Positions 1 through 10,073 of a stretch of 10,073 nucleotides of DNA are shown here, piece after piece. The notes under the pieces were generated by a model that saw only the letters and a list, made by a program, of their open reading frames with translations, was not told where the DNA came from and ran no database searches. Source of the stretch: Pleurocapsa sp. MO_226.B13 (lineage in GTDB: Bacteria > Cyanobacteriota > Cyanobacteriia > Cyanobacteriales > Xenococcaceae); the NCBI GenBank assembly GCA_030064795.1, contig JASJEI010000497.1:1-10073 (forward strand), written 5' to 3'. How positions within the stretch are numbered: the first letter of the stretch is position 1; every line of letters starts with the position of its first letter. The position numbers were made by a program, and so were the translations under genes.

Positions 1-14
1 TTAACAACAATAAA

Positions 15-20
15 AAGGAG
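15..20 (+). promoter_or_regulatory. Strong Shine-Dalgarno site
   Basis: AAGGAG lies eight bases upstream of the ATG at 29. It fixes the start of the NTF2-like gene. Most other genes in this window lack such a clear site. Confidence 0.75.
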
Positions 21-28
21 ATCGAACA

Positions 29-427
29 ATGACTAATACATCAAACAACTTAAGTGAACACCAGGCAATTAAACAAACCGCCCAGTTCTATATTGATGGT
101 GCGATCGCTGGTAAATCTGAAATCATGAGTCGTGCCTTTAGTAAAGATGCAACTATCTATGGTTTTGTTTATCCAGACTCGACCAAGCCTGAAAAAAATA
201 CACTGCTTTCGGGGTCAATCCAGGCACTCTTTGATTTTGTTGACAGCACCGAACCAGTACAAAACCTAAAGGTGGAATTTGTGCGTATAGATATCGTCGG
301 CACATCAGCTAATATCAAACTAGAACTCTACGATTGGCTTGGTATGAAATTTACTGATTCCCTCAACCTTCTCAAGACTGTTGAAGGGTGGAAAATTGTG
401 AGCAAAGTTTTCCATCAATCGACTTAA
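29..427 (+). CDS. NTF2/SnoaL-like small protein (putative lumazine-binding-like fold)
   Basis: Small soluble protein of 132 residues with no signal peptide or membrane segment. The layout fits the NTF2-like/SnoaL cone fold: an N-terminal helix (about 10-27, AIKQTAQFYIDGAIAGK), a segment with FSKDATIYGF (about 38-47), and C-terminal strands ending in LLKTVEGWKIVSKVFH (about 114-129). The ending 'dGWKIvsk.fh' is common in the DUF4440/lumazine-binding-like branch (family knowledge). Members are small-molecule-binding proteins or isomerase/cyclase-like enzymes; no catalytic residues or ligand can be named here. The start is well supported by AAGGAG at 15-20, eight bases before ATG, the clearest ribosome site in the window. 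It is followed by 176 bases without a gene, so it is probably a single transcription unit or the end of an upstream operon cut by the window edge. Family placement is fairly sure; function is unknown. Confidence 0.75.
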   Translation: MTNTSNNLSEHQAIKQTAQFYIDGAIAGKSEIMSRAFSKDATIYGFVYPDSTKPEKNTLLSGSIQALFDFVDSTEPVQNLKVEFVRIDIVGTSANIKLELYDWLGMKFTDSLNLLKTVEGWKIVSKVFHQST

Positions 428-530
428 CATCAGTTTATTGAAGCCCAAGAGAAATAACTAGCTCAAAACAATACCTTCGCCAAATCAGCTCCAATCATGT
501 CAATTTAAATTGAATACATGAGACGTGAAT

Positions 531-574
531 GGTTGTTCGCTTTTAAAATCTATCTTAACTATCATGGAACAACC
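531..574. repeat. Inverted repeat GGTTGTTC / GAACAACC upstream of the aldo/keto reductase homologue
   Basis: Perfect 8-bp arms, GGTTGTTC at 531-538 and GAACAACC at 567-574, enclose 28 bases and end about 30 bases before the ATG at 604. The spacer is AT-rich (TTTTAAAATCTATC) and could hold a promoter. It could be a split operator or an mRNA hairpin in the leader. There is no T-run, so it is not a terminator. The rest of the 428-603 intergenic stretch shows nothing recognisable. Confidence 0.4.
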
Positions 575-603
575 GTAATTAATTATTTGGTTCGGATTTC
601 AAG

Positions 604-1413
604 ATGAAATTAACCACAATTTCTAATACACCAGTCAGTATCTTGGGCTTAGCAGGTAATCGAGCAATGGACGCACGATGCCTCAAGAAAGCCTTTGCAG
701 CAGGTATAAATTACTTTTTTTTCTACGAACTCTCAGCAATTGAAAATCTAGTAGACGAGTTAAAGATTTTACTAGCAGACAAACGACAAGATATGTTAGT
801 TGCGACTGGTAGTGAAAGTCGCAATTTTCAGCAACTCCAACAATATTTAGATTCAGTGCGTAGTTATCTCGATCTCGATGTTATTGATGTATTTCTTTTA
901 GAGTATGTCTCTCCTGCTGACGATTTAACTCAAATACAAGCTTTACTCCAAGAATTGGAAATTTGGCAGGAACGAGGTTGGATTCGTTACCTAGGAATTT
1001 CTACTCACAACCGCTCCCTCGCCCTCAACCTAATCGAATCAGGACAAATTGAGGTTTTGATGCATCGCTATAATATGGCGCACCGCAAAGTCGAGCAAGA
1101 TGTATTTCCCGCAGCACTTCAGGCTGCTTTACCAGCGATCGCCTTTACCTGCACTCGCTGGGGTACATTGCTTAAAGGTCATCCAAATTGGCAAAACCAA
1201 ATCCCCTCAGCAGCAGATTGCTATCGTTATGTCCTCGCCAATGAAGCAGTAAGTATGGCTTTGACTTCTCCTCAAACCTTAGCTCAATTAGAGGAAAATC
1301 TACAAGTCCTCGATCGCTCCCAATTAACTGACGCAGAAAAAACTCTTTGGCAATCCTATGGTGATTTAATCTACGATCGAGGTCAAGATGCTTTTGAAAC
1401 TCAATGGCTTTAA
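604..1413 (+). CDS. Aldo/keto reductase family protein, probable pseudoenzyme
   Basis: 269 residues with the outline of an aldo/keto reductase TIM barrel: N-terminal VSILGLAGNRAMD (11-23), AAGINYF (32-38), LDLDVIDVFLLEY (89-101), RGWIRYLGISTHNR (124-137), and a C-terminal block of the 'fvLanp.vs..l..p....qleenl' type (about 208-233). Aligned to the family, all four catalytic tetrad positions are replaced. The Asp of 'GINFFDTA' is Phe39, the Tyr five residues on is Ser44 (Tyr41 is nearby but out of register), the Lys of 'vaTK' is Gly69, and the His of 'yyLH' is Glu100. The late NADP-binding segment is also poorly conserved. I therefore infer that it is not a working NAD(P)H reductase but perhaps a binding or regulatory descendant. 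The frame is intact and codon use looks normal, which argues for retained function. No clear Shine-Dalgarno site precedes the ATG. The stop codon overlaps the left end of a MITE-like element. Confidence 0.8.
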   Translation: MKLTTISNTPVSILGLAGNRAMDARCLKKAFAAGINYFFFYELSAIENLVDELKILLADKRQDMLVATGSESRNFQQLQQYLDSVRSYLDLDVIDVFLLEYVSPADDLTQIQALLQELEIWQERGWIRYLGISTHNRSLALNLIESGQIEVLMHRYNMAHRKVEQDVFPAALQAALPAIAFTCTRWGTLLKGHPNWQNQIPSAADCYRYVLANEAVSMALTSPQTLAQLEENLQVLDRSQLTDAEKTLWQSYGDLIYDRGQDAFETQWL

Positions 1414-1501
1414 GCTTAGACGCACTAAAGTTACCTATTCTATTCCTTCTCCATAAGGCGTTTGAGGATTTCAAAGTGCAATGTAAATGCGTCTAAGCTT
1501 A
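1411..1501. mobile_element. MITE-like element with 14-bp terminal inverted repeats
   Basis: TAAGCTTAGACGCA (1411-1424) and its exact reverse complement TGCGTCTAAGCTTA (1488-1501) bound a 91-bp segment. Both outer ends are TA, as expected if a TA target was duplicated, which is the habit of IS630/Tc1-mariner elements and their MITEs (family knowledge). The inside has only a small internal hairpin, CCTT (1445-1448) with AAGG (1455-1458), and no gene. The left end supplies the TAA stop of the preceding gene. An alternative is a long-loop hairpin acting on the 3' end of that mRNA; no T-run follows the right arm. The element reading is an inference from end structure alone. Confidence 0.5.
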
Positions 1502-1561
1502 GAATCGTCTTATTAACACTGAGAGGGTATTCATCAACAAGAAATGAGGGTTAAACTTCAT

Positions 1562-1596
1562 AACTCCGAACTGCGAACTCCGAATTCCGAACTTTT
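1562..1596. repeat. Heptanucleotide tandem repeat (STRR-like)
   Basis: Five consecutive 7-mers are visible: AACTCCG, AACTGCG, AACTCCG, AATTCCG, and a decayed AACTTTT. Short tandem heptamers of this kind (STRR) are scattered in cyanobacterial genomes (established knowledge). It lies in the gap between the MITE-like element and the end of the sulfurtransferase gene. No function is evident. Confidence 0.7.
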
Positions 1597-1628
1597 CTTC
1601 TATCCATCAATTCAAAATTGACAGACCA

Positions 1629-2462
1629 CTACTTTTCTACAGGCAAATCGGCAATACGACTCCATTCATTCCAAGAGCCGTGATAATTTTTAACCTGGGG
1701 ATAACCCAATAAATATTTTAAAATAAACCAAGTATGTCCAGAACGCGCTCCCACTGCACAATAGGGAATCACTAGCTTTTCGGGAGTAACATTTTTGGAT
1801 TCAAAAATCTCTTTTAATTCAGTCAAAGACTTGAAAGTACCATCATCATTATGAGCTAATTCGTAGTAAAAATTTATTGCCGAAGGTATATGTCCCGCCC
1901 GCTCATTTTCTGTTGGCGGTTTCATCATAAATAGTTCGCCATTATATTCTTGAGGCGTGCGAACATCTAGGAGAATAGAATCATTTTGTCCAATTATTTT
2001 TTGTACTTCTGCTAGAGAAATTGATAAATCATCATTAGGAATTTTAATCTGATATTGGGTAGGTGTGACTGTAGTTTGGGCTGTAGTTAAAGGATAACCG
2101 TCCATAATCCATTTTGGACGACCACCATTTAAAATCCGAAGGCGATCGTGTCCAAAAACTTTTAGCAACCAAAAAATAAAGCCAGAAGTAGCAATAAAAC
2201 CATCATGAACTGCAACTACAGTTGTCTTATTTGTAATCCCAGAATTACCGAGCAATTCTTCTATAGTTTTTGGCTCTAAATTAATCTGAAAATCGGGTTT
2301 TGTTAGTGTCATTGCATTCCAAAAAATCGACCCAGGAATATGACCTTTTTCGTAAGATTCTGGATTCAAATCCATTTCGACAATACGAACATTAGGATCT
2401 TCTAGATGTTCTGACAACCATTGAGTATCTACTAAAGTTTCAGGATAGGCGTATGGGGACAT
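1629..2462 (-). CDS. Two-domain sulfurtransferase (rhodanese / 3-mercaptopyruvate sulfurtransferase type)
   Basis: 277 residues, normal for the tandem-rhodanese family, which moves sulfane sulfur from thiosulfate or 3-mercaptopyruvate to cyanide or thiol acceptors. The N-terminal structural domain (about 8-125) shows LVDTQWLSEHL, YEKGHIPGSIFWN and VFGHDRLRILNGGRPKW; the catalytic Cys position is replaced (around Asp87), as usual. The C-terminal catalytic domain (about 145-275) has SILLDVRTPQEYNGE, RAGHIPSAINF and the active-site loop CAVGARS with Cys235, followed by KNYHGSWNEWSR. The loop CAVGARS matches neither the classical rhodanese loop (CRKGVT) nor the mercaptopyruvate type (CGSGVT), so the sulfur donor cannot be assigned. 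No signal peptide is seen; it is probably cytoplasmic. The ATG at 2462 has no clear ribosome site. The gene is divergent from the LuxR-type regulator 92 bases away, which may control it (inference). Confidence 0.9.
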   Translation of the reverse strand: MSPYAYPETLVDTQWLSEHLEDPNVRIVEMDLNPESYEKGHIPGSIFWNAMTLTKPDFQINLEPKTIEELLGNSGITNKTTVVAVHDGFIATSGFIFWLLKVFGHDRLRILNGGRPKWIMDGYPLTTAQTTVTPTQYQIKIPNDDLSISLAEVQKIIGQNDSILLDVRTPQEYNGELFMMKPPTENERAGHIPSAINFYYELAHNDDGTFKSLTELKEIFESKNVTPEKLVIPYCAVGARSGHTWFILKYLLGYPQVKNYHGSWNEWSRIADLPVEK

Positions 2463-2502
2463 AATCTTAAAGTCTCGATAAGTTAACTATGGCTATGATA
2501 AA

Positions 2503-2516
2503 GATCGAGTTCGATC
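2503..2516. promoter_or_regulatory. Palindrome in the divergent sulfurtransferase/LuxR-type regulator intergenic region
   Basis: GATCGA-GT-TCGATC is a palindrome with 6-bp arms and a 2-base centre, roughly midway between the two divergent starts. LuxR/NarL-type HTH proteins bind short dyads, so this is a candidate operator. It is partly built of HIP1-like GATCG words common in this genome, which weakens the case. A TATGAT hexamer (2494-2499) just upstream could be a -10 for the plus-strand gene, but no -35 match is seen. Confidence 0.35.
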
Positions 2517-2554
2517 GCGAATAGTCCTCAAACGGGTACACTTGATTGAAAAAA

Positions 2555-3223
2555 ATGACGCAGGATCTAAAAACTTTATTTACAGCGACCGCCAACAGCA
2601 AAAGCGAGTTAGAATTACAGCAAAATGCGATCGCTCAAGTTGGTGAATATTTTGCAGCTACACGCCATCGTTTGTTTATCTTGGCTCGACTTCCCCAAGT
2701 CGTAAATCGCCCGAAGTTGATGCAAATGGCTCTATCTTTGGACTATAATCCCGTTCTACGCTACTTAGTTGAACATCACGTACCAGTTCATGAAGGAGTG
2801 TTATTAACACCCCACAAGTGGCGAACCATTTGTCCTCGTTTCGACCACGGTCATGTAATGGTTGGCCCAATTGTCAATAATGGTAGTCTAATCGGTGGTT
2901 TGGCTTTAACTCGCGATCGCCATCATAATCCTTTTAACCAACAGAATCTCTTAGAGTTAAGTGCTATATGTTTGCACGTCTCAACCAAATTAACTCAAAT
3001 TAAATCTCAACAGCTAGAGTTAGATCGAGACAGTATTGAGAAAATTACTCCTCGTCAATTACAAATTGCTCAATTAGTTGCTCAAGGGTTAACCAATGCC
3101 GAAATTGGCAAAACTTTATGGATTACGGAAAACTCAGTCAAGCAAGCTTTAAAAAGGATGTTTCGTAAATTGCAAGTCTCATCCCGTGCGGAAATGGTTG
3201 CCAAATTGTCTAACTGTAATTGA
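2555..3223 (+). CDS. LuxR-family transcriptional regulator with GAF-like N-terminal domain
   Basis: 222 residues from the ATG at 2555. A TTG at 2546 in the same frame would add three residues (MKK); neither has a good ribosome site, and I prefer the ATG. The C-terminus (about 163-219) is a clear LuxR/GerE helix-turn-helix: ITPRQLQIAQLVAQGLTNAEIGKTLWITENSVKQ, then RMFRKLQVSSRAEMV. The N-terminal part (about 14-150) looks like a GAF-type sensory fold: LELQQNAIAQVGEYF, a central HVPVHEG...HGHVMVGPIVNNGSLIGGLALTR, and a helix NLLELSAICLHVSTKL. There is no phospho-acceptor receiver domain, so this is not a classical two-component regulator. The regulated gene is probably the divergent sulfurtransferase or the downstream MATE gene (inference from position). 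Ligand unknown. Confidence 0.85.
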   Translation: MTQDLKTLFTATANSKSELELQQNAIAQVGEYFAATRHRLFILARLPQVVNRPKLMQMALSLDYNPVLRYLVEHHVPVHEGVLLTPHKWRTICPRFDHGHVMVGPIVNNGSLIGGLALTRDRHHNPFNQQNLLELSAICLHVSTKLTQIKSQQLELDRDSIEKITPRQLQIAQLVAQGLTNAEIGKTLWITENSVKQALKRMFRKLQVSSRAEMVAKLSNCN

Positions 3224-3277
3224 AGGCGTTGCGGATTTTAAATATGAAAATTATTGGAGTTAATTTGCTCGTAGCTA

Positions 3278-3305
3278 TTGACTATTAGCCAAGATCGCTT
3301 ACTTA
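3278..3305 (+). promoter_or_regulatory. Possible weak promoter before the MATE/EamA pair
   Basis: TTGACT (3278-3283) followed 16 bases later by TACTTA (3300-3305) is a loose sigma-70-type match upstream of the ATG at 3346. The -10 match is poor, and this is only the best candidate in a 122-base gap. Confidence 0.25.
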
Positions 3306-3345
3306 AATTCAGATCGAGTAAACTCATAAATACAGATATTAAAAA

Positions 3346-4713
3346 ATGGCTTCGACTATTGCTGACTCTTCTTTTCGCGGGGAAATTAGAAAATTTCTGC
3401 AATTAGCTATTCCTTTAGCTAGCGCGCAGGTGGCGCAATCTCTGACGGGATTTTTTGATACCATCATGATGGGTAGATTGGGGGCAGAAACTATCGCTGC
3501 GGGAGGTTTGGCTTCGATGACTTTTTTTGCCCTCTTTAGTACTGCTGGGGGAGTGGTAATGGGAATCAGTCCTCTGGTAGCAGAAGCTTTTGGTGCGGGT
3601 AAGAAAACCAGAATTGAAAAGTTAACCCGTCAGGGGTTTTGGTTGGTTTTGCTATTGTCCATACCGATGATGATGGCGACTGCCAACTTAGATTCAATGA
3701 TGCTGCAATGGGGACAGGCGCGAACTACTGTCAGTTTAGCTAATAGTTATTTAGATATTCTTCTTTGGGGTTTCTTTCCTGCTTTGGGGTTTGCTATGTT
3801 GCGGGGTGTGGTCTCTGGCTTATCCCAGGCTCGTCCGATAATGATTATTGTTATCTTTGGTACGGTATTTAATATCATCGGTAACTATATTTTGGGATTT
3901 GGTAAGTTAGGTTTTCCCCGTCTGGAGTTAGTCGGTTTGGCGATCGCTAGTACCATATCTCTCTGGGGAATGTTTATTGCTCTGGTTATTTATATCCTCA
4001 AACATCCTCAGCTTAGTGCTTATCGTTTCTTCCAGCAGTTACACCAAATCAAACCCGCTATTATCGGAGAATTGTGTAAAACGGGTATTCCTATTGGTAT
4101 TTTTATGGCTTTGGAATTGGGCTTGTTTACCATTGTCACCTATCTCATGGGGGCATTAGGAACAGAAGTATTAGCAGCCCATCAAATCGTCGTTCAGACA
4201 ATCATAGTAACATTTATGATTCCCTTGGGTATGTCCTATGCAGCAACGGCAAGAGTGGGACAGTGGTTGGGGCGTAAAGATTTACCAGGAATCAAAAGAG
4301 CGGGATATATCAGTATTGGTATGGGTTTAATTGTGATGTCGTTACTGGCGATCGTCATGCTGTTATTTCCTCGGTTTATAGTTGGGATTTATCTAGACAT
4401 CAACGATCCTGCCAACGAGCGATTAATCTCGCTGGCTTTACCGATGCTAACCATTGCCTCAATTGCCCAAATCTTAGACGCAGCGCAAAAAATTACCTAC
4501 GGCGCATTGCAAGGGCTCCAAGATACTCGAATCCCAGTCTTTTTGAATATTTCTGCTTTTTGGCTAATTGGCTTGCCTACAGGCTATTTTCTCGGCTTTC
4601 ACTTCGGCTTGGATGGCATTGGTTTGTGGTTGGGACAGTCTATTGGAGTAGCGATCGCTGCCGTTCTGTTTCCGATCCGTTTTCGCTGGCAAACAAACTA
4701 TTTAGAACCATAA
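3346..4713 (+). CDS. MATE family efflux transporter (NorM type)
   Basis: 455 residues with about twelve hydrophobic segments in two halves, the usual size for MATE antiporters that export cationic drugs or metabolites in exchange for Na+ or H+ at the inner membrane. The first half opens with the signature QSLTGFFDTIMMGRLGAETIAAGG (about 31-54). The acidic residues matching the cation-coupling residues of Vibrio NorM are all present: Asp38 in FFDTIMMG, Glu257 in MALELG and Asp378 in QILDAAQ. The second half repeats the family pattern with LGTEVLAAHQIVVQ (271-284) and GALQGLQDTRIP (386-397). The protein therefore looks functional. No clear Shine-Dalgarno site lies before the ATG at 3346, but no later Met fits the first membrane segment better. 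The EamA gene starts 18 bases after its stop, so co-transcription is likely. Substrate cannot be predicted. Confidence 0.93.
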   Translation: MASTIADSSFRGEIRKFLQLAIPLASAQVAQSLTGFFDTIMMGRLGAETIAAGGLASMTFFALFSTAGGVVMGISPLVAEAFGAGKKTRIEKLTRQGFWLVLLLSIPMMMATANLDSMMLQWGQARTTVSLANSYLDILLWGFFPALGFAMLRGVVSGLSQARPIMIIVIFGTVFNIIGNYILGFGKLGFPRLELVGLAIASTISLWGMFIALVIYILKHPQLSAYRFFQQLHQIKPAIIGELCKTGIPIGIFMALELGLFTIVTYLMGALGTEVLAAHQIVVQTIIVTFMIPLGMSYAATARVGQWLGRKDLPGIKRAGYISIGMGLIVMSLLAIVMLLFPRFIVGIYLDINDPANERLISLALPMLTIASIAQILDAAQKITYGALQGLQDTRIPVFLNISAFWLIGLPTGYFLGFHFGLDGIGLWLGQSIGVAIAAVLFPIRFRWQTNYLEP

Positions 4714-4731
4714 ACCTTATCAAATTACCAG

Positions 4732-5604
4732 ATGCAAAAATTTACCACAATCTATATCAAGTTAGTTTTAACCATGGCAATTTGGGGCGGGACTTTTGTT
4801 GTGGGTAGAATAGTCGCCCAGAATTTAGATCCTTTTACTGCTGGATTGGGTCGTTTTGCTAGTGCTTCGATATTTTTGTGGTTTTTAATTCGCTCTAGAA
4901 AAGAAAAATTAGCTCGGCTCAATCTCAGACAAATTTTGCTAGTAATTTTATTAGGACTGAGTGGAATCTTAACTTATAATCTTTGCTTTTTTCTAGGATT
5001 AAAAGAAATTTCCGCTAGCCGTGCGGGATTAATTATTGCCCTCAATCCAATTTGTATTACTATTGGCTCTCGGATCTTTTTTCAAGAGAGATTGACCCTC
5101 TTGAAATTAGTAGGTATTGCTATTTCCTTGTTGGGTGCAGCCCTGATTATTACCGAAGGCAATATTAGCAGTATAGTTACAGAGGGTATAGGTAAAGGAG
5201 AATTATTTATTTTAGGTTGTGTTTTTAGCTGGGTATGTTATTCTTTGTTAGGTAAATTAGCGATGCAAGAATTATCTGCTTTAACTACTACGACCTATGC
5301 TATTTGGCTTGGTACTCTATTTTTAATTCCTGTAACTATTTGGGAAAACGATCGCTTGCCAACAATCGATTTTTCAACGGCATTAGGTTTATTATATTTA
5401 GGTATTGTCGCCACAGTAATTGCTTTTAATTGGTATTATGCGGGAATTAAAGAGATTGGCGCGTCTAAGGCTGCTATTTTTATTAATTTAGTACCGATGT
5501 TTGCGATTATTTTTGGTCTGGTTTTTCTTCAAGAATCTCTATCGGCGATCGCTTTTTTGGGCGGAGGGTTAGTAATCTTGGGTGTATTTTTGGTAAATCG
5601 ATAA
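4732..5604 (+). CDS. EamA/DMT-family transporter
   Basis: 290 residues and about ten membrane segments, in two EamA repeats (about 11-141 and 157-288), the standard drug/metabolite transporter layout. Typical cues are LTMAIWGGTFVVGRIVAQNLDPFTAGLGRFASA (13-45) in the first repeat and EIGASKAAIFINLVPMFAIIFGLVFLQESL (241-270), with a closing GGGLVILGVFLV, in the second. Family members export amino acids, nucleotides, drugs or other small metabolites across the inner membrane; the substrate here is unknown. The ATG at 4732 is preferred because the Met at 4774 would cut into the first membrane helix, although no clear ribosome site precedes it. It follows the MATE gene by 18 bases on the same strand, suggesting a two-gene export operon. 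It ends one base before the end of the convergent BASS gene, leaving no space for a terminator. Confidence 0.9.
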   Translation: MQKFTTIYIKLVLTMAIWGGTFVVGRIVAQNLDPFTAGLGRFASASIFLWFLIRSRKEKLARLNLRQILLVILLGLSGILTYNLCFFLGLKEISASRAGLIIALNPICITIGSRIFFQERLTLLKLVGIAISLLGAALIITEGNISSIVTEGIGKGELFILGCVFSWVCYSLLGKLAMQELSALTTTTYAIWLGTLFLIPVTIWENDRLPTIDFSTALGLLYLGIVATVIAFNWYYAGIKEIGASKAAIFINLVPMFAIIFGLVFLQESLSAIAFLGGGLVILGVFLVNR

Positions 5605-5605
5605 T

Positions 5606-6484
5606 TTATTTAACAAAATTAAAATTGCGACCTTGCATCCACCAGCCAAAAACCGCACAGGTAAGATACATTAGCAGAGAGTAGATTGCTGCTGGAATCG
5701 CCATAGTAGGATTACTGAGAAAGGTCGGCGCACTAGCAATAGCGATCGCTAAAGTACCGTTTTGAATACCTACTTCTACCGTAATCGCCTTAACGCTATC
5801 CTCTTTTAGCTTAGCAATGGTAGCAATACCGAAGCCTAAAGCCATAGTCGATACATTTAAGACAAAAGTCGATCCACCCACTTGGTAAACATAGCTGAAA
5901 AAATTGGCTCTTTCTACTAACAGCAAGCCAAACACGATTAAAGCCAAAAAGAATACTGAAAGCCACTTGACTAGCTTTTCCGCTTTGACGGCAAATCGCG
6001 GGGTATAGTGGTTTGAGATCATGCCCAAAGCAACGGGAATAATCGTAATTACAGCAATCTTAATCGTAGTTTCGACTAAAGACAATTGCACGGCAACCTC
6101 CTCTCCCATAAAACTCTGCATCGCTAGATTGACTACCAGAGGAATGGTAAACACCGTAATCAGACTACTGACAGCAGTTAGGGTAATTGATAGGGCGACA
6201 TTACCTTTTGCTAAATAGGTCATCATATTGGAGGTAGCCCCCCCAGGACAGGCTGTCAGGATAATTAAACCGACTGCTAACTCTGGAGAGAGAGAGAAAA
6301 CTACAGCGATCGCAAAACCTACCACTGGCAAGATAATTAGCTGGGCGATTAAGCCCAAAACTACCGATTTGGGTTCGAGGGTAACTCGTTTAAAATCATT
6401 TATTGTCAGCCCCATTCCCATACTCAACATGATGATGAATAAAGCCAAGGGCAGAAAAACCGCCGTGAGAAAATTAGATTCCAT
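5606..6484 (-). CDS. Bile acid:sodium symporter (BASS) family transporter
   Basis: 292 residues with about nine to ten membrane segments. The family cores are clear: MGMGLTINDF (22-31), ACPGGATSNMMTYLAKGNVALSITLTAVSSLIT (78-110) and TVEVGIQNGTLAIAIA (235-250). Residues matching the sodium sites of the structurally known bacterial homologue ASBT are kept: Ser85-Asn86 in the first crossing region and Glu237 with Gln241 in the second. A Na+-coupled import mechanism is therefore likely. Bacterial and plastid relatives carry organic anions such as pyruvate, 2-keto acids, pantoate or sulfated compounds; bile acid as substrate is unlikely in a cyanobacterium. It lies 227 bases downstream of the TetR-family gene on the same strand and may be read from that promoter or its own. 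Its 3' end abuts the convergent EamA gene. Confidence 0.92.
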   Translation of the reverse strand: MESNFLTAVFLPLALFIIMLSMGMGLTINDFKRVTLEPKSVVLGLIAQLIILPVVGFAIAVVFSLSPELAVGLIILTACPGGATSNMMTYLAKGNVALSITLTAVSSLITVFTIPLVVNLAMQSFMGEEVAVQLSLVETTIKIAVITIIPVALGMISNHYTPRFAVKAEKLVKWLSVFFLALIVFGLLLVERANFFSYVYQVGGSTFVLNVSTMALGFGIATIAKLKEDSVKAITVEVGIQNGTLAIAIASAPTFLSNPTMAIPAAIYSLLMYLTCAVFGWWMQGRNFNFVK

Positions 6485-6651
6485 CAGTAAATAATAAGTT
6501 TTTCCGCCACTATTACATGGTTGTCTGCTTTAAACCAGGGGAAAAATTCAGGTATTTCTCTGGCTTGAGAGCGGAAAATCAGGTCTTTAGCCTCAAAAAA
6601 GTAAATACCAACTTTTCTTGTTTGCGTAAGTCCTATCCAAGCGCGATCGCA

Positions 6652-6676
6652 CTTGCCAAGTTACAAACTTTTCAAG
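6652..6676. repeat. Small imperfect hairpin between the TetR-family and BASS genes
   Basis: CTTG-cc-AAGTT, loop ACA, AACTT-tt-CAAG forms a short stem with an internal loop. It has no T-run on either side, so it is a poor intrinsic terminator candidate. The rest of the 6485-6711 gap has one HIP1 octamer (6643-6650) and nothing else recognised. Confidence 0.25.
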
Positions 6677-6711
6677 ACTGAGAAAGGATACATCAATGTG
6701 GAATGTGGAGA

Positions 6712-7326
6712 TTATTCCTCAAAGATTAATTTTAGATAGCGACGAAACTGTCTAAGCGATCTAGCCATAAGTTTGGCATCTTGCAGAGATTTGGATAAGA
6801 TAAATCCCCCTTCGACAATGCAGATAATCGTTTCGGCTAACTCTTTAGGCTCGACCTCGATCTTCGGCGGATATTTTTGGATAATTAGCTCGATGCGCTG
6901 TTCGTAAATTTTTCCCCATTCTTTGAAACTATCGGCAACGAATTGTTTGATATCTTCATCAAATTGCTCGCTCTCATGGACGTAGGAAGAGAACAAGCAG
7001 CCTTGAGATGGATCGTTTAAGGCTTCGATATATTCTTCAAACAGTTTGAGGAATATTAACATCGATTGAAGCGGATCGTCACTCAGTTCGTCGGCTCGCC
7101 GAGCGAACTGTTCTAGTAAGGCGTAATCCCTCTGCCAAAATTGCTCGATTAGGGCGCGGGCTAGCTCCGCTTTATTGGGGAAATGATAGAAAAACGCTCC
7201 TTTAGTAATCCCAGTGGCAGCAATAATTTCGTCGATCGAGGTTCCCACAAAACCCTGTTGTAATATTAGTTCTTCCGCATTGGCGAGAATCCGTTCTCTG
7301 GTTTGGTTCTTTCTTTTTGTTGGCAT
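6712..7326 (-). CDS. TetR/AcrR-family transcriptional repressor
   Basis: 204 residues, typical TetR length. The N-terminal DNA-binding domain (about 8-56) is textbook: RERILANAEELILQQGFVGTSIDEIIAATGITKGAFFYHFPNKAEL. The remaining helical part (about 60-204) is the ligand/dimer domain and contains SQGCLFSSYVHE (107-118), a 'GCL' turn seen in several TetR subfamilies; Cys110 is a possible redox or thiol-sensing residue (inference only). The start is supported by GAGGA (plus-strand TCCTC at 7336-7340), nine bases before the ATG. A matching -10 and operator lie directly upstream, so autorepression is very likely. It is divergent from the methanethiol oxidase operon, and an identical operator lies over that promoter, making that operon its likely main target. 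The BASS gene downstream on the same strand may be a co-transcribed partner. Confidence 0.93.
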   Translation of the reverse strand: MPTKRKNQTRERILANAEELILQQGFVGTSIDEIIAATGITKGAFFYHFPNKAELARALIEQFWQRDYALLEQFARRADELSDDPLQSMLIFLKLFEEYIEALNDPSQGCLFSSYVHESEQFDEDIKQFVADSFKEWGKIYEQRIELIIQKYPPKIEVEPKELAETIICIVEGGFILSKSLQDAKLMARSLRQFRRYLKLIFEE

Positions 7327-7349
7327 ACTTAATTTTCCTCATCGTTAAT

Positions 7350-7358
7350 ATTATACCA
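7350..7358 (-). promoter_or_regulatory. Extended -10 promoter element of the TetR-family gene
   Basis: On the minus strand this reads TGGTATAAT, a perfect TATAAT with the TGn extension. It would place transcription start near 7343, giving a short leader that holds the GAGGA ribosome site. No good -35 is seen (ATAATT at 17 bases), fitting extended -10 recognition. It overlaps operator copy 1. Confidence 0.6.
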
Positions 7359-7369
7359 ACTAGTTTGTA
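7351..7369 (-). promoter_or_regulatory. TetR operator copy 1 (tetR side)
   Basis: TTATACCAACTAGTTTGTA contains the 16-bp near-palindrome TACCAACTAGTTTGTA (7354-7369), symmetric except for one position pair. The exact reverse complement of all 19 bases recurs at 7498-7516. On the minus strand the right arm merges into the extended -10 of the TetR gene. Short, nearly perfect dyads beside a divergent TetR gene are characteristic of TetR operators. Confidence 0.8.
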
Positions 7370-7468
7370 AATAATTATTTCGAGTTTGACTGGTGGTTAT
7401 TCTAGTAAAGCTTTTTTCTGGCTTGATTTAGAGGATTTTGGTCGAACGAGAATCACTGGCAATTGAAT

Positions 7469-7517
7469 TTGACAATTTAAAGAATATTTCACTACTATAC
7501 AAACTAGTTGGTATAAA
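7469..7517 (+). promoter_or_regulatory. Promoter region of the methanethiol oxidase operon
   Basis: Two readings fit. One is TTGACA (7469-7474), 18 bases, TACTAT (7493-7498), with start near 7505 inside the operator. The other is an extended -10, TGGTATAAA (7509-7517), mirroring the TetR gene's TGGTATAAT, with start near 7524. Either way operator copy 2 sits on the promoter. Confidence 0.55.
7498..7516 (+). promoter_or_regulatory. TetR operator copy 2 (methanethiol oxidase side)
   Basis: TACAAACTAGTTGGTATAA is the exact reverse complement of 7351-7369. The dyad centres of the two copies are 144 bases apart. The copy overlaps both candidate promoters for the downstream operon, so bound repressor would block transcription. 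The opposite orientation means each copy points toward the gene it would control. Confidence 0.8.
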
Positions 7518-7523
7518 AATAAA

Positions 7524-7702
7524 GCAAACAATCTACGTAGTTTCCTTAAGATCGCTTCATCGGTCATTCCCAGCCAAGCAAAATCTCTAACAGCGAACAG
7601 TTAGCCGTTAAAAGCGATTAGGCTTACGCCTAGCCGACCGATCGCCAGATTGAGTTAAAGCCAAGACGATTAAAAACCGAATCAAGATAAGAGATCGAAC
7701 CA
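7524..7702 (+). other. Long 5' leader of the methanethiol oxidase operon
   Basis: About 180 bases lie between the likely start of transcription and the ATG at 7703. The leader holds a hairpin TAGGC (7619-7623), loop TTAC, GCCTA (7628-7632), of a palindromic type common in cyanobacterial spacers, and a HIP1-like GATCGCC. I recognise no known riboswitch and no upstream reading frame of note. A weak GAGA near 7689 may serve as ribosome site. Confidence 0.35.
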
Positions 7703-9058
7703 ATGAACGAACATCATCATTGTTGTGGACCTGGTTATGCTTCTGTGGAAGCAGCGATGCAAGCAGAACGAGAGCGAGTTCTTTATACCATCGCTCTTTA
7801 TACAGGAACGGGAATTGAAGAATCAGATTACTTAGCTACGATTGATATCGACCCCAAGTCTCCGACTTACTCTCAAGTAATTCACCGTCTCCCCATGCCG
7901 AATCTGGGGGATGAACTGCACCATTTTGGGTGGAATGCTTGTAGTTCTTGTTATGGCGATGCCAGTAAATCCCGACGGTTCTTGATTATCCCAGGGATGC
8001 GTTCGGGCAACATTTATATTGTAGATACCAAAGACGAGCGATCGCCTCAAATTCATAAAGTCATCGAATTTGCCGAAATCAAAGAGAAAACTAATCTATC
8101 TGCCCCCCATACAGTTCACTGTCTCCCCGAACGGGTGATGATTTCCATGTTAGGAGATGGCGAAGGAAATGGCCCAGGCGGTTTTTTGCTGTTGGATGAG
8201 AATTTTGACATTGCAGGACGTTGGGAACAGCAAGCCGAAGGAATGCAATTCAATTATGACTTTTGGTATCAACCCCGTCATAATGTAATGGTCAGTAGTG
8301 AATGGGGCGCACCAAAAACCTTTTTCCCTGGTTTCGATCTCGATGACGTTGCTGCGGGTAAATACGGCAAACAACTACACTTCTGGGATTGGTCGAGCCA
8401 AGAAATTATCCAAACTGTCGATCTCGGCGAAGAAGGGATGATTCCTTTAGAAGTTCGTTTTCATCACAATCCCGAGAGTACTCATGGTTTTGTGGGTGCA
8501 GCATTGAGCAGTAATATTTGGCACTGGCATCAAGCTAATGGTGGTTGGGATATCCAGAAAGCGATCGATATTCCTGCGGTAGAACTAGAGGGTTGGCCGA
8601 TGCCCGTACCTTCTTTGATTACCGATCTGGTCTTGTCTATGGACGATCGATATCTTTACCTATCCAATTGGTTGCATGGCAATATTTGTCAGTATGATAT
8701 TAGCGAGCCAATGAACCCTCGACTAACAGGTCAAGTTTGGTGGGGTGGATTATTAAACAAAGGTAGTGCCGTTAAAGGTCGTCAATCTGCTGCTGGACCA
8801 CAAATGCTGCAATTAAGCCTTGATGGTAAACGGTTGTATGCGACGGATTCTCTCTTTAGTACTTGGGATAATCAGTTTTACCCCGATTTAAAACAAGCAG
8901 GTTCGACCCTATTACAAATTGATTGCGACACAGAAAAAGGCGGACTGAAGATTAATGAGAATTTCTTGGTTGATTTTGGCAAAGAACCATTAGGTCCTTC
9001 CCGCGCCCACGAAATGCGTTATCCAGGCGGTGACTGCACCTCCGATATTTGGCTGTAG
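7703..9058 (+). CDS. Methanethiol oxidase / selenium-binding protein SBP56 family (MtoX/SELENBP1 type)
   Basis: 451 residues and a very strong resemblance to human SELENBP1 from end to end. Shared blocks include CCGPGY (7-12), DYLATIDIDPKSPTYSQVIHRLPMPN (42-67), WNACSSCYGD (77-86, holding the Cys equivalent to the selenium-binding Cys of the human protein), HTVHCLP (136-142), YDFWYQPRHNVMVSSEW (185-201), IPLEVRFHHNP (247-257), SNWLHGN (321-327), and HEMRYPGGDCTSDIWL at the end (436-451). The family oxidises methanethiol with O2 to formaldehyde, H2S and H2O2; conserved His residues (for example 136, 139, 254, 255, 325, 436) are the likely copper ligands. It lacks the roughly 20-residue insertion near 355 of the human enzyme. 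No signal peptide is seen, unlike some periplasmic bacterial MtoX enzymes. It is the first gene of a tight three-gene operon under apparent TetR control. The family is sure; the substrate in vivo is inferred. Confidence 0.95.
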   Translation: MNEHHHCCGPGYASVEAAMQAERERVLYTIALYTGTGIEESDYLATIDIDPKSPTYSQVIHRLPMPNLGDELHHFGWNACSSCYGDASKSRRFLIIPGMRSGNIYIVDTKDERSPQIHKVIEFAEIKEKTNLSAPHTVHCLPERVMISMLGDGEGNGPGGFLLLDENFDIAGRWEQQAEGMQFNYDFWYQPRHNVMVSSEWGAPKTFFPGFDLDDVAAGKYGKQLHFWDWSSQEIIQTVDLGEEGMIPLEVRFHHNPESTHGFVGAALSSNIWHWHQANGGWDIQKAIDIPAVELEGWPMPVPSLITDLVLSMDDRYLYLSNWLHGNICQYDISEPMNPRLTGQVWWGGLLNKGSAVKGRQSAAGPQMLQLSLDGKRLYATDSLFSTWDNQFYPDLKQAGSTLLQIDCDTEKGGLKINENFLVDFGKEPLGPSRAHEMRYPGGDCTSDIWL

Positions 9059-9061
9059 ACA

Positions 9062-9385
9062 GTGAAGAAAACTTACCAAGTTCAATTAATTAATCGGAAT
9101 CTAGTCATTGAGGTAGCAGAAGACCAATACATTTTAGAAGCAGTGGAAGCAGCAGGGCAAAAATTACCTGTAGGTTGTCGTTATGGAGTTTGTGCTACCT
9201 GTGCTGCTCGTCTGCTCAAAGGAGAAGTCGAACAGTCTCAAGCAGTTGGCTTAAAACCCGATCGAGTAGCTAAAGGTTATGTTTTGCTTTGTATTGCCTC
9301 GCCTCGTTCTGATTGTCAGTTTGAGGTAGGGGTAGAATCCCAAGCAGGTTTATATCTCAATCCCTTTCAACATAAACAAGATTAG
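9062..9385 (+). CDS. Plant-type [2Fe-2S] ferredoxin
   Basis: 107 residues with the plant/cyanobacterial ferredoxin pattern: Cys39-x4-Cys44-x2-Cys47-x29-Cys77 in GCRYGVCATCAARLLKGEV...GYVLLCIASP, so the one-electron [2Fe-2S] cluster can form. The N-terminus begins TYQVQLINRNLVIEVAEDQYILEAVEAAG, as in photosynthetic-type ferredoxins. It differs from the housekeeping PetF form in being basic near the cluster and in an extended tail (about 92-107), so it is probably a dedicated rather than a photosynthetic carrier (inference). It starts with GTG three bases after the methanethiol oxidase stop and has no ribosome site of its own, which suggests translational coupling. SBP56 enzymes are not known to need a ferredoxin, so the partner is unclear: the oxidase, the methyltransferase, or a protein encoded elsewhere. 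Confidence 0.92.
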   Translation: MKKTYQVQLINRNLVIEVAEDQYILEAVEAAGQKLPVGCRYGVCATCAARLLKGEVEQSQAVGLKPDRVAKGYVLLCIASPRSDCQFEVGVESQAGLYLNPFQHKQD

Positions 9386-9387
9386 TT

Positions 9388-10002
9388 ATGTCAAGATTAA
9401 CCGACCCCTTAAAAATCAAAGCAGCGACGACCTATAATACTGCATCTGACTATTTCGACGATCCTGCCTGTGAATTCTGGAACATTTATGGTCGAAAAAC
9501 TGTAGAACGTCTTTACTTAAACTTAGGTGATAGAGTTTTAGATGTCGCCTGTGGAACGGGAGCTTCAGCAATCCCAGCAGCCGAAATAGTAGGCGATCGC
9601 GGTCAAGTGATTGGAGTAGATATTGCTGACAATCTAATGGCTCTTGCTAGAGAGAAAGCTCGTCAAAAGAATTTGTCGAATATTACTTTTCAATGGGGCG
9701 ACATGACCGACCTTGAATTTGAAGCAGAATCATTCGATGCGGTGGTGTGCGTGTTCGGAATCTTTTTTGTCAAAGAGATGGAAGAGCAAATCAGTAAGCT
9801 ATGGCGACTTGTCCGACCAGGTGGAAAGCTGGCGATCGCTACTTGGGGACAAAATATATTTGCACCAATTTATTCGATTTGGAACCAAATCTTAAAACAA
9901 CATAGACCAGATCTGTTTTCTGCTTTTCATCCATGGGATCGGATTATACCAATTCTCAAAAGTTACTGGAGACTTAGTTTAGATACAAAATTAGCGTATT
10001 GA
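9388..10002 (+). CDS. Class I SAM-dependent methyltransferase, probably C-terminally truncated
   Basis: 204 residues. The Rossmann SAM-binding core is intact: motif I VLDVACGTG (50-58), VIGVDIA with the ribose-binding acidic Asp78 (74-80), WGDMTDLEFEAESFDAVVC (103-121), and the post-motif LWRLVRPGGKLAIATWG (138-154). After RPDLFSAFHPWDRI (173-186) the family would normally run on for roughly 60-70 residues. Here the sequence becomes IPILKSYWRLSLDTKLAY and stops, and no other frame continues the family. I suspect a deletion or insertion junction near 9940. The SAM-binding part may still fold, but the substrate-covering part is missing. The ATG lies two bases after the ferredoxin stop, so it is the third gene of the operon. 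The methyl acceptor is unknown; a thiol, sulfide or selenide would fit the oxidase (inference). Confidence 0.82.
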   Translation: MSRLTDPLKIKAATTYNTASDYFDDPACEFWNIYGRKTVERLYLNLGDRVLDVACGTGASAIPAAEIVGDRGQVIGVDIADNLMALAREKARQKNLSNITFQWGDMTDLEFEAESFDAVVCVFGIFFVKEMEEQISKLWRLVRPGGKLAIATWGQNIFAPIYSIWNQILKQHRPDLFSAFHPWDRIIPILKSYWRLSLDTKLAY

Positions 10003-10073
10003 AAACGCTAAAGTAATCACAGCCAAGCTCTTAGATATTTTAATTAATAAAAAATAATTTGGTTATATATCTA
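9940..10073. other. Possible rearrangement junction and AT-rich tail
   Basis: From about GATTATACCAATTCTC (starting near 9939) the reading frame stops resembling the methyltransferase family. The sequence then becomes AT-rich non-coding DNA to the window edge, with TAATTAATAAAAAATAATTT near 10040. This may be the edge of an inserted element or the scar of a deletion, and the decisive part lies outside the window. Confidence 0.3.

Follow-up and report, generated by a model that had tools for sequence, protein, structure and literature searches.

A TetR-family repressor, its predicted operator code, and an apparent exchange of the divergent target gene from OsmC to SBP56 in cyanobacteria

The window analyzed here is a stretch of 10,073 nucleotides (nt) from Pleurocapsa sp. 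MO_226.B13 (GenBank assembly GCA_030064795.1, contig JASJEI010000497.1, positions 1 to 10,073 of the forward strand). It contains a gene for a TetR-family repressor of 204 amino acids (aa), tetR (6712–7326, minus strand), and, in divergent orientation across an intergenic gap of 376 base pairs (bp), a gene for a protein of the selenium-binding protein family, SBP56 (451 aa; 7703–9058, plus strand), which adjoins a gene for a plant-type 2Fe-2S ferredoxin-like protein, Fer2 (107 aa; 9062–9385, plus strand), on its 3′ side. Computational analysis reveals two operators in this gap, links them to a TetR clade, confines the regulon to the TetR locus at a strict operator pattern, and places an exchange of the partner gene on the repressor tree. 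We hold with considerable confidence that these genes represent a self-controlled divergent repressor–target module with a swapped target and Cys110-based derepression. As an autoregulated divergent TetR module, it would be a standard type of switch; the apparent novelty lies in the operator code used by this TetR clade and in the replacement of an OsmC target by SBP56, seen in two loci.

From the sequence, we infer that the two divergent promoters, that of tetR itself and that of an SBP56–ferredoxin(–methyltransferase) operon, each have a near-palindromic operator, TACnnACnnGTnnGTA, to which a TetR dimer would bind. The operator would overlap the −10 element or the start site, such that binding would block RNA polymerase at both promoters. 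Derepression would probably proceed via modification of Cys110, which occupies the position of the oxidant-sensing Cys106 of NemR. The ancestral divergent target would have been an OsmC-like gene, the place of which was taken by SBP56–Fer2 in the lineage that comprises the window and a second locus, L012.

The operator pair and its promoters

The 19-mer TTATACCAACTAGTTTGTA at 7351–7369 has its exact reverse complement at 7498–7516, and the arms of this inverted repeat extend to 25 nt with 92% identity. Three matches to the 19-mer with at most three mismatches are found in the window, the third being the second copy read on the opposite strand, and none of 200 dinucleotide shuffles (mean 0.00) reaches that number. 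The longest non-overlapping exact inverted repeat of the 376-bp gap is likewise 19 nt, compared with 6–11 nt in 100 mononucleotide shuffles. Within the two copies lie the dyads of operator O1 on the tetR side (TACCAACTAGTTTGTA, 7354–7369; repeat search, alignment, and family survey) and operator O2 on the SBP56 side (TACAAACTAGTTGGTA, 7498–7513; repeat search and alignment). Each is symmetric at seven of eight base pairs by eye, and their centers are 144 bp apart. A first-pass annotation of the sequence had described the 19-mer, its reverse complement, and a near-perfect 16-bp dyad in each copy; its coordinates, strands, and center spacing are all confirmed, and the repeat is far beyond chance.

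Both ends of the divergent gap bear an operator in all six close loci, namely, the window, L012, L001 (Xenococcus PCC 7305), L002, L094, and L095, with center spacings of 144, 144, 140, 141, 143, and 141 bp, respectively. In L012, L094, and L095, the site next to the target gene deviates at one of the ten fixed operator positions. When the six intergenic regions are aligned, invariant positions number 27 of 38 in the operators and 15 of 123 in the spacer, where pairwise identity is 34–55%. By eye, the promoter-proximal operator half reads GTTGGT in all 12 operators, and the conserved mirror orientation is best explained by the overlap of this half with the promoter. The mirror-image pair proposed in the first-pass annotation is thus conserved in orientation across the six loci, whereas only the window has two identical copies, the members of the pair being unlike each other in all five relatives.

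On the tetR side, a predicted extended −10 element, TGGTATAAT (7350–7358, minus strand), overlaps O1, and by eye the same element overlaps the tetR-side operator in five of the six loci. Two candidates are present on the SBP56 side: a sigma-70 promoter, TTGACA-N18-TACTAT (7469–7498, plus strand; a 10/12 match), at the last base of which the O2 dyad begins, and an alternative extended −10 element, TGGTATAAA (7509–7517, plus strand), which overlaps O2. By eye, TGGTATAAA is found in three of the six loci (window, L002, and L094), with TGGTTAAAT in L012; L012 also has TTGACA-N18-TAATAT, and inspection of the four OsmC loci by eye revealed no such promoter. Transcription of SBP56 may start from the TTGACA-18-TACTAT promoter rather than from the extended −10 element. 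Neither start is secure, because the promoter scan is weak, with two promoter-like sites found versus 1.1 expected by shuffling. Whichever promoter is used, O2 is predicted to cover the −10 element or the start site. The proposed fusion of operator to outward-facing extended −10 element therefore holds well for tetR and less well for SBP56 or OsmC, for which a rival promoter exists.

An operator code in the TetR clade

A protein search with the window TetR returned 828 homologues at E ≤ 1e-20, 120 of them listed. A profile of 20 sequences yielded 80 loci in public genomes, the best 80 of 397 confirmed. With the dyad reduced to its ten fixed positions, TACnnACnnGTnnGTA, and scored at no more than one mismatch in the 300 bp preceding the tetR start, 79 loci were scorable (the 80 loci and the window, minus the masked or short L033 and L071). 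The dyad is present in 65 of these 79, the window included. By percent identity, it is found in four of four loci at 59% or above, 26 of 36 at 40–58%, 12 of 14 at 35–40%, and 23 of 25 below 35%. Coding stretches of equal length contain it in 0 of 79 cases, and shuffled sequences do so at 0.2–0.6%. The dyad follows tetR in cyanobacteria, proteobacteria, Bacteroidota, and one acidobacterium while the neighboring gene varies.

Eight cyanobacterial genomes were scanned in full with a strict pattern, TACMRACYRGTYKGTA, a scan that covers perfect sites and misses some second operators, such as that of G001, the genome of L012. The strict pattern is confined to the TetR locus in all six TetR-bearing genomes (G004 was judged by coordinates), with no further strict-pattern sites in these six that would indicate a wider regulon. 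It was not found in G386, and a backward control pattern has no match in the eight genomes. Since the dyad tracks TetR homologues and, at the strict pattern, is confined to TetR loci, it very probably serves this TetR clade as operator, as judged from sequence. The operator oligomer strings were not found in the open-access literature. Such a code allows targets to be predicted for this TetR clade in several phyla. The simultaneous repression of tetR and the SBP56 operon put forward in the first-pass annotation is likely, given a dyad at both ends of the gap in six of six loci and its tracking of the subfamily across phyla.

Other arrangements of the dyad are also observed. In Bacteroidota, the operators are exactly 40 bp apart in nine of ten two-site loci at no more than one mismatch (L026, L027, L031, L034, L041, L047, L049, L051, and L052; the exception, L054, has 24 bp), a spacing suggestive of cooperative binding or of back-to-back promoters in a fixed geometry. 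Tandem dyads 21–24 bp apart, about two helical turns, occur in L004, L005, L009, L015, L054, and L070, as if two dimers were positioned side by side.

Partner genes and the identity of SBP56

In L001, L002, L094, and L095, an OsmC-like gene occupies the place of SBP56 and is served by the same mirror pair, 140–143 bp apart. The OsmC domain (PF02566) was confirmed in all five OsmC candidates given (L001, L094, L095, L009, and L015), and the OsmC of L002 shares 93% identity with the one in the L001 genome. Partners were typed in 83 loci (the 80 plus L094, L095, and L102, the window standing outside the set) with nine query proteins, eight from these loci and the window SBP56. OsmC is the partner in 11, a methyltransferase in 7, a fatty-acid-hydroxylase-like protein in 22, and SBP56 in 1; two have a partner without a Pfam match, three have both the fatty-acid-hydroxylase-like and the no-Pfam type, and 37 have another partner or none. 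L012 is the only one of the 80 loci with SBP56 near TetR (flanks of up to 4 kb). The dyad at this sole other TetR–SBP56 pair is present at both sites, one with a single mismatch, in agreement with what the first-pass annotation predicted for orthologous pairs. Its proposed scan of relatives thus bears out the dyad upstream of tetR, whereas pairing with SBP56 is rare and the usual close partner is OsmC.

SBP56 itself is found in 6 of 386 sampled cyanobacterial genomes, and also in G004. No dyad lies near SBP56 outside G001 in any of six genomes, within 1.5 kb on each side or within about 4 kb; L097 has two one-mismatch dyad strings ~3 kb from SBP56, inside another open reading frame (ORF). At E ≤ 1e-25, the phylum sample (386 genomes) contains TetR matches in 2 genomes and the order sample (291 genomes) in 5; among plasmids, 1 of 72,556 records matches at E ≤ 1e-20, with 39% identity. 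In a midpoint-rooted tree of 59 repressor sequences, the window and L012 group together (support 0.999) inside a cyanobacterial clade linked to OsmC (0.991); of the 12 members of the sister group of this larger clade, 7 are OsmC-linked and five are untyped. Because the SBP56-linked repressors are nested inside OsmC-linked ones, the simplest history would be the replacement of OsmC by SBP56–Fer2 under a retained promoter–operator region in these two loci.

The window SBP56 gives a full-length match to PF05694 (710.7 bits, residues 7–451), contains CC and CSSC motifs, and matches the structure 2ece (E = 9e-124). Its label as a methanethiol oxidase in the first-pass annotation holds at the level of the SBP56 family and is otherwise unproven, because the protein scores 149.5 bits with the NCBIfam MtoX equivalog model, versus a cut-off of 650; by this cut-off, identity with MtoX is rejected. 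The mtoX gene accompanies SCO1/senC and mauG in many organisms, according to passages of PMC5739008, a linkage that is common and not universal; both are absent from the window, in which the next genes are Fer2 and a methyltransferase gene before the window ends at 10073. In the literature seen, bacterial SBP56 regulation is described only for mtoX of Ruegeria pomeroyi, which is induced by methanethiol or dimethylsulfoniopropionate (DMSP) and has an IclR-type regulator upstream (PMC5739008, in part). Similar to the window, these IclR-linked mtoX genes of Roseobacters adjoin a local regulator, and a Phaeobacter plasmid carries SBP56–Fer2 with a divergent IclR gene; the regulator is of the IclR family there and of the TetR family in the window. 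No report of TetR regulation of SBP56 was found in open-access titles, abstracts, and passages.

The order SBP56 then Fer2 recurs in the window (7703–9385), L012, L099, L116, and L117, in some cyanobacteria and on plasmids of the alphaproteobacteria Paracoccus and Phaeobacter; no Fer2 ORF adjoins SBP56 in L096, L098, or L101. This recurrence suggests that the ferredoxin may be an electron partner of SBP56.

Induction, alternative readings, and minor features

The repressor has an N-terminal TetR helix-turn-helix domain (TetR_N) and a helical C-terminal domain of the TetR_C_13/LmrA-YxaF type. Its model, built on a 20-sequence alignment, has a predicted local distance difference test score (pLDDT) of 87.2, and its structural matches are TetR proteins, with NemR (4yze) fourth by Z (18.8; 2.6 Å over 184 residues). 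In a BLASTP alignment at 22% identity, Cys110 pairs with NemR Cys106 and Lys179 with NemR Lys175. Cys110 is present in 120 of the 120 listed homologues, window included, and Lys179 in 42 of the 44 closest. Passages of PMC8748444 and PMC7464077 describe NemR Cys106 as serving the hypochlorite response and mention a Cys106–Lys175 sulfenamide that had been proposed. Because the invariant Cys110 aligns with NemR Cys106, a thiol switch through Cys110 is plausible, and it would fit OsmC as the older target. The S. maltophilia DitR and uropathogenic E. coli RcrR were considered, from partial texts, as precedents for thiol-sensing TetR repressors; the main text of a thiosulfinate tolerance paper (PMC12306174) contains neither “OsmC” nor “selenium”.

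The comparison with NemR, an E. coli electrophile and hypochlorite sensor, covers the protein and the gene order. The only cysteines of the window TetR are Cys110 and Cys169; it lacks Cys21 and Cys116, which are electrophile-sensing in NemR (PMC7464077, in part), and its target is divergent, unlike the E. coli nemR-nemA-gloA order. Without the Cys21/Cys116 pair and nemA-gloA, identity with NemR is rejected. AcuR of Rhodobacter sphaeroides is likewise a TetR protein, linked to DMSP sulfur metabolism, whose inverted-repeat operator overlaps the promoter of its own gene. However, its operator as given in a passage of PMC3017554, TAATAGAC-n6-GTCTATTA, differs from the code TACnnACnnGTnnGTA and the window dyad TACCAACTAGTTTGTA, acuR-acuI-dddL form a single operon, whereas the window genes are divergent, and the window TetR scores 57.9 bits with the NCBIfam AcuR model, below the cut-off of 247; model score and operator both exclude AcuR. 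The best NCBIfam match is of the ScbR type (75.6 bits, below the cut-off of 150), which recalls the gamma-butyrolactone receptors CprB, ScbR, and SfbR. SfbR binds an 18-nt ARE with dyad symmetry, AAACVGNNBVNNCSGTTT (PMC7480387, in part), and CprB binds as a dimer of dimers (PMC4150764, in part). These are streptomycete signal receptors, and the core bases differ from those of the window dyad.

Several observations weigh against the module as proposed. The dyad is lacking at no more than one mismatch in 14 of the 79 loci, six of them linked to fatty-acid hydroxylase, and one strict-pattern site lies elsewhere, in G338 (L104), which has SBP56 and no TetR match at E ≤ 1e-25. The TetR frame of L012 (L012:4001-4490) departs from homology after about residue 113; with this truncation and the one mismatch in O2 of L012, the window itself is the main basis for the SBP56 linkage, which may be of recent origin or in decay. 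No OsmC of the L002 type turned up in G001, an absence of little weight given that G001 is a metagenome-assembled genome (MAG) in many contigs. Over all 120 listed homologues, the Lys179 position is occupied by Lys (50), Arg (53), Asn (14), or Leu (3), the response of a NemR-based sensor to hypochlorite involves no Cys–Lys sulfenamide (PMC8748444, in part), and Cys110 could be structural. The shortened L012 frame could be a true truncation or a MAG assembly fault.

The 14 homologues without the dyad, together with a TetR binding that is predicted from sequence, leave a barely credible reading in which the dyads are sites of another regulator, or a chance or terminator repeat, unrelated to this TetR. 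The tracking of tetR over several phyla beside varying neighbors and the absence of strict-pattern sites elsewhere in TetR-bearing genomes speak against it. The first-pass annotation had raised DNA looping, by which the two operators would cooperate through bound dimers, and the two strong sites, with a spacing kept at 140–144 bp in a diverged spacer, could be read in this way. This spacing corresponds to 13.3–13.7 turns at 10.5 bp per turn, nearer opposite faces of the helix; other surveyed loci have 40, 50, 79, or 120–164 bp between sites, many have a single site, and looping is unneeded where each site alone overlaps a promoter. Looping is very unlikely and, on phasing and single-site relatives, is rejected as the primary explanation.

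Most studied TetR proteins are ligand-induced, and the window TetR has a TetR_C_13-type ligand domain. With repressor and operators unchanged, the inducer could conceivably be a target-pathway metabolite that binds reversibly, such as methanethiol or another small thiol or volatile sulfur compound, as the induction of R. pomeroyi mtoX would suggest. We find this somewhat unlikely. The ancestral repressor is unlikely to have had a pocket specific for methanethiol, because relatives of the regulator adjoin OsmC, methyltransferase, or fatty-acid-hydroxylase-like genes rather than SBP56. In addition, Cys110 is invariant. Returning to the Cys110-based module, a broader proposal can be offered only tentatively: a thiol-sensor clade, with its invariant cysteine where NemR has Cys106 and with the code TACnnACnnGTnnGTA, may keep its divergent cassette and exchange the gene beneath it (OsmC, methyltransferase, fatty-acid-hydroxylase-like, or SBP56), with SBP56 standing in for OsmC in the window lineage. 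If true, this cyanobacterial SBP56 would share the reactive-sulfur and oxidant defense of OsmC and be induced by the same signal, and a redox-type repressor common to both would point to a role in thiol or oxidant defense for an SBP56 below the MtoX cut-off.

Downstream of Fer2, an ORF of 204 aa (9388–10002, plus strand) encodes a UbiE-like class I S-adenosylmethionine-dependent methyltransferase, presumed to be the third gene of the window SBP56 operon; none was seen after Fer2 in L012. In the region 9388–10073, this ORF may stop early and has an odd tail from about 9945, possibly reflecting an interruption; the 18-mer ATACCAATTCTCAAAAGT from the tail region has no match in 119 loci. The SBP56 leader (~185 nt; 7518–7702, plus strand) begins weakly like the OsmC leader, with an A-rich stretch followed by AACAAT (7 of 29 positions invariant), and the remainder matches L012 alone among the fetched loci (70% over 172 nt). 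A 24-nt stretch of the leader (7615–7638) with the palindrome TAGGCTTACGCCTA is missing from the aligned L012 leader; it resembles an inserted small repeat and includes a terminator-like minus-strand match at 7619–7632.

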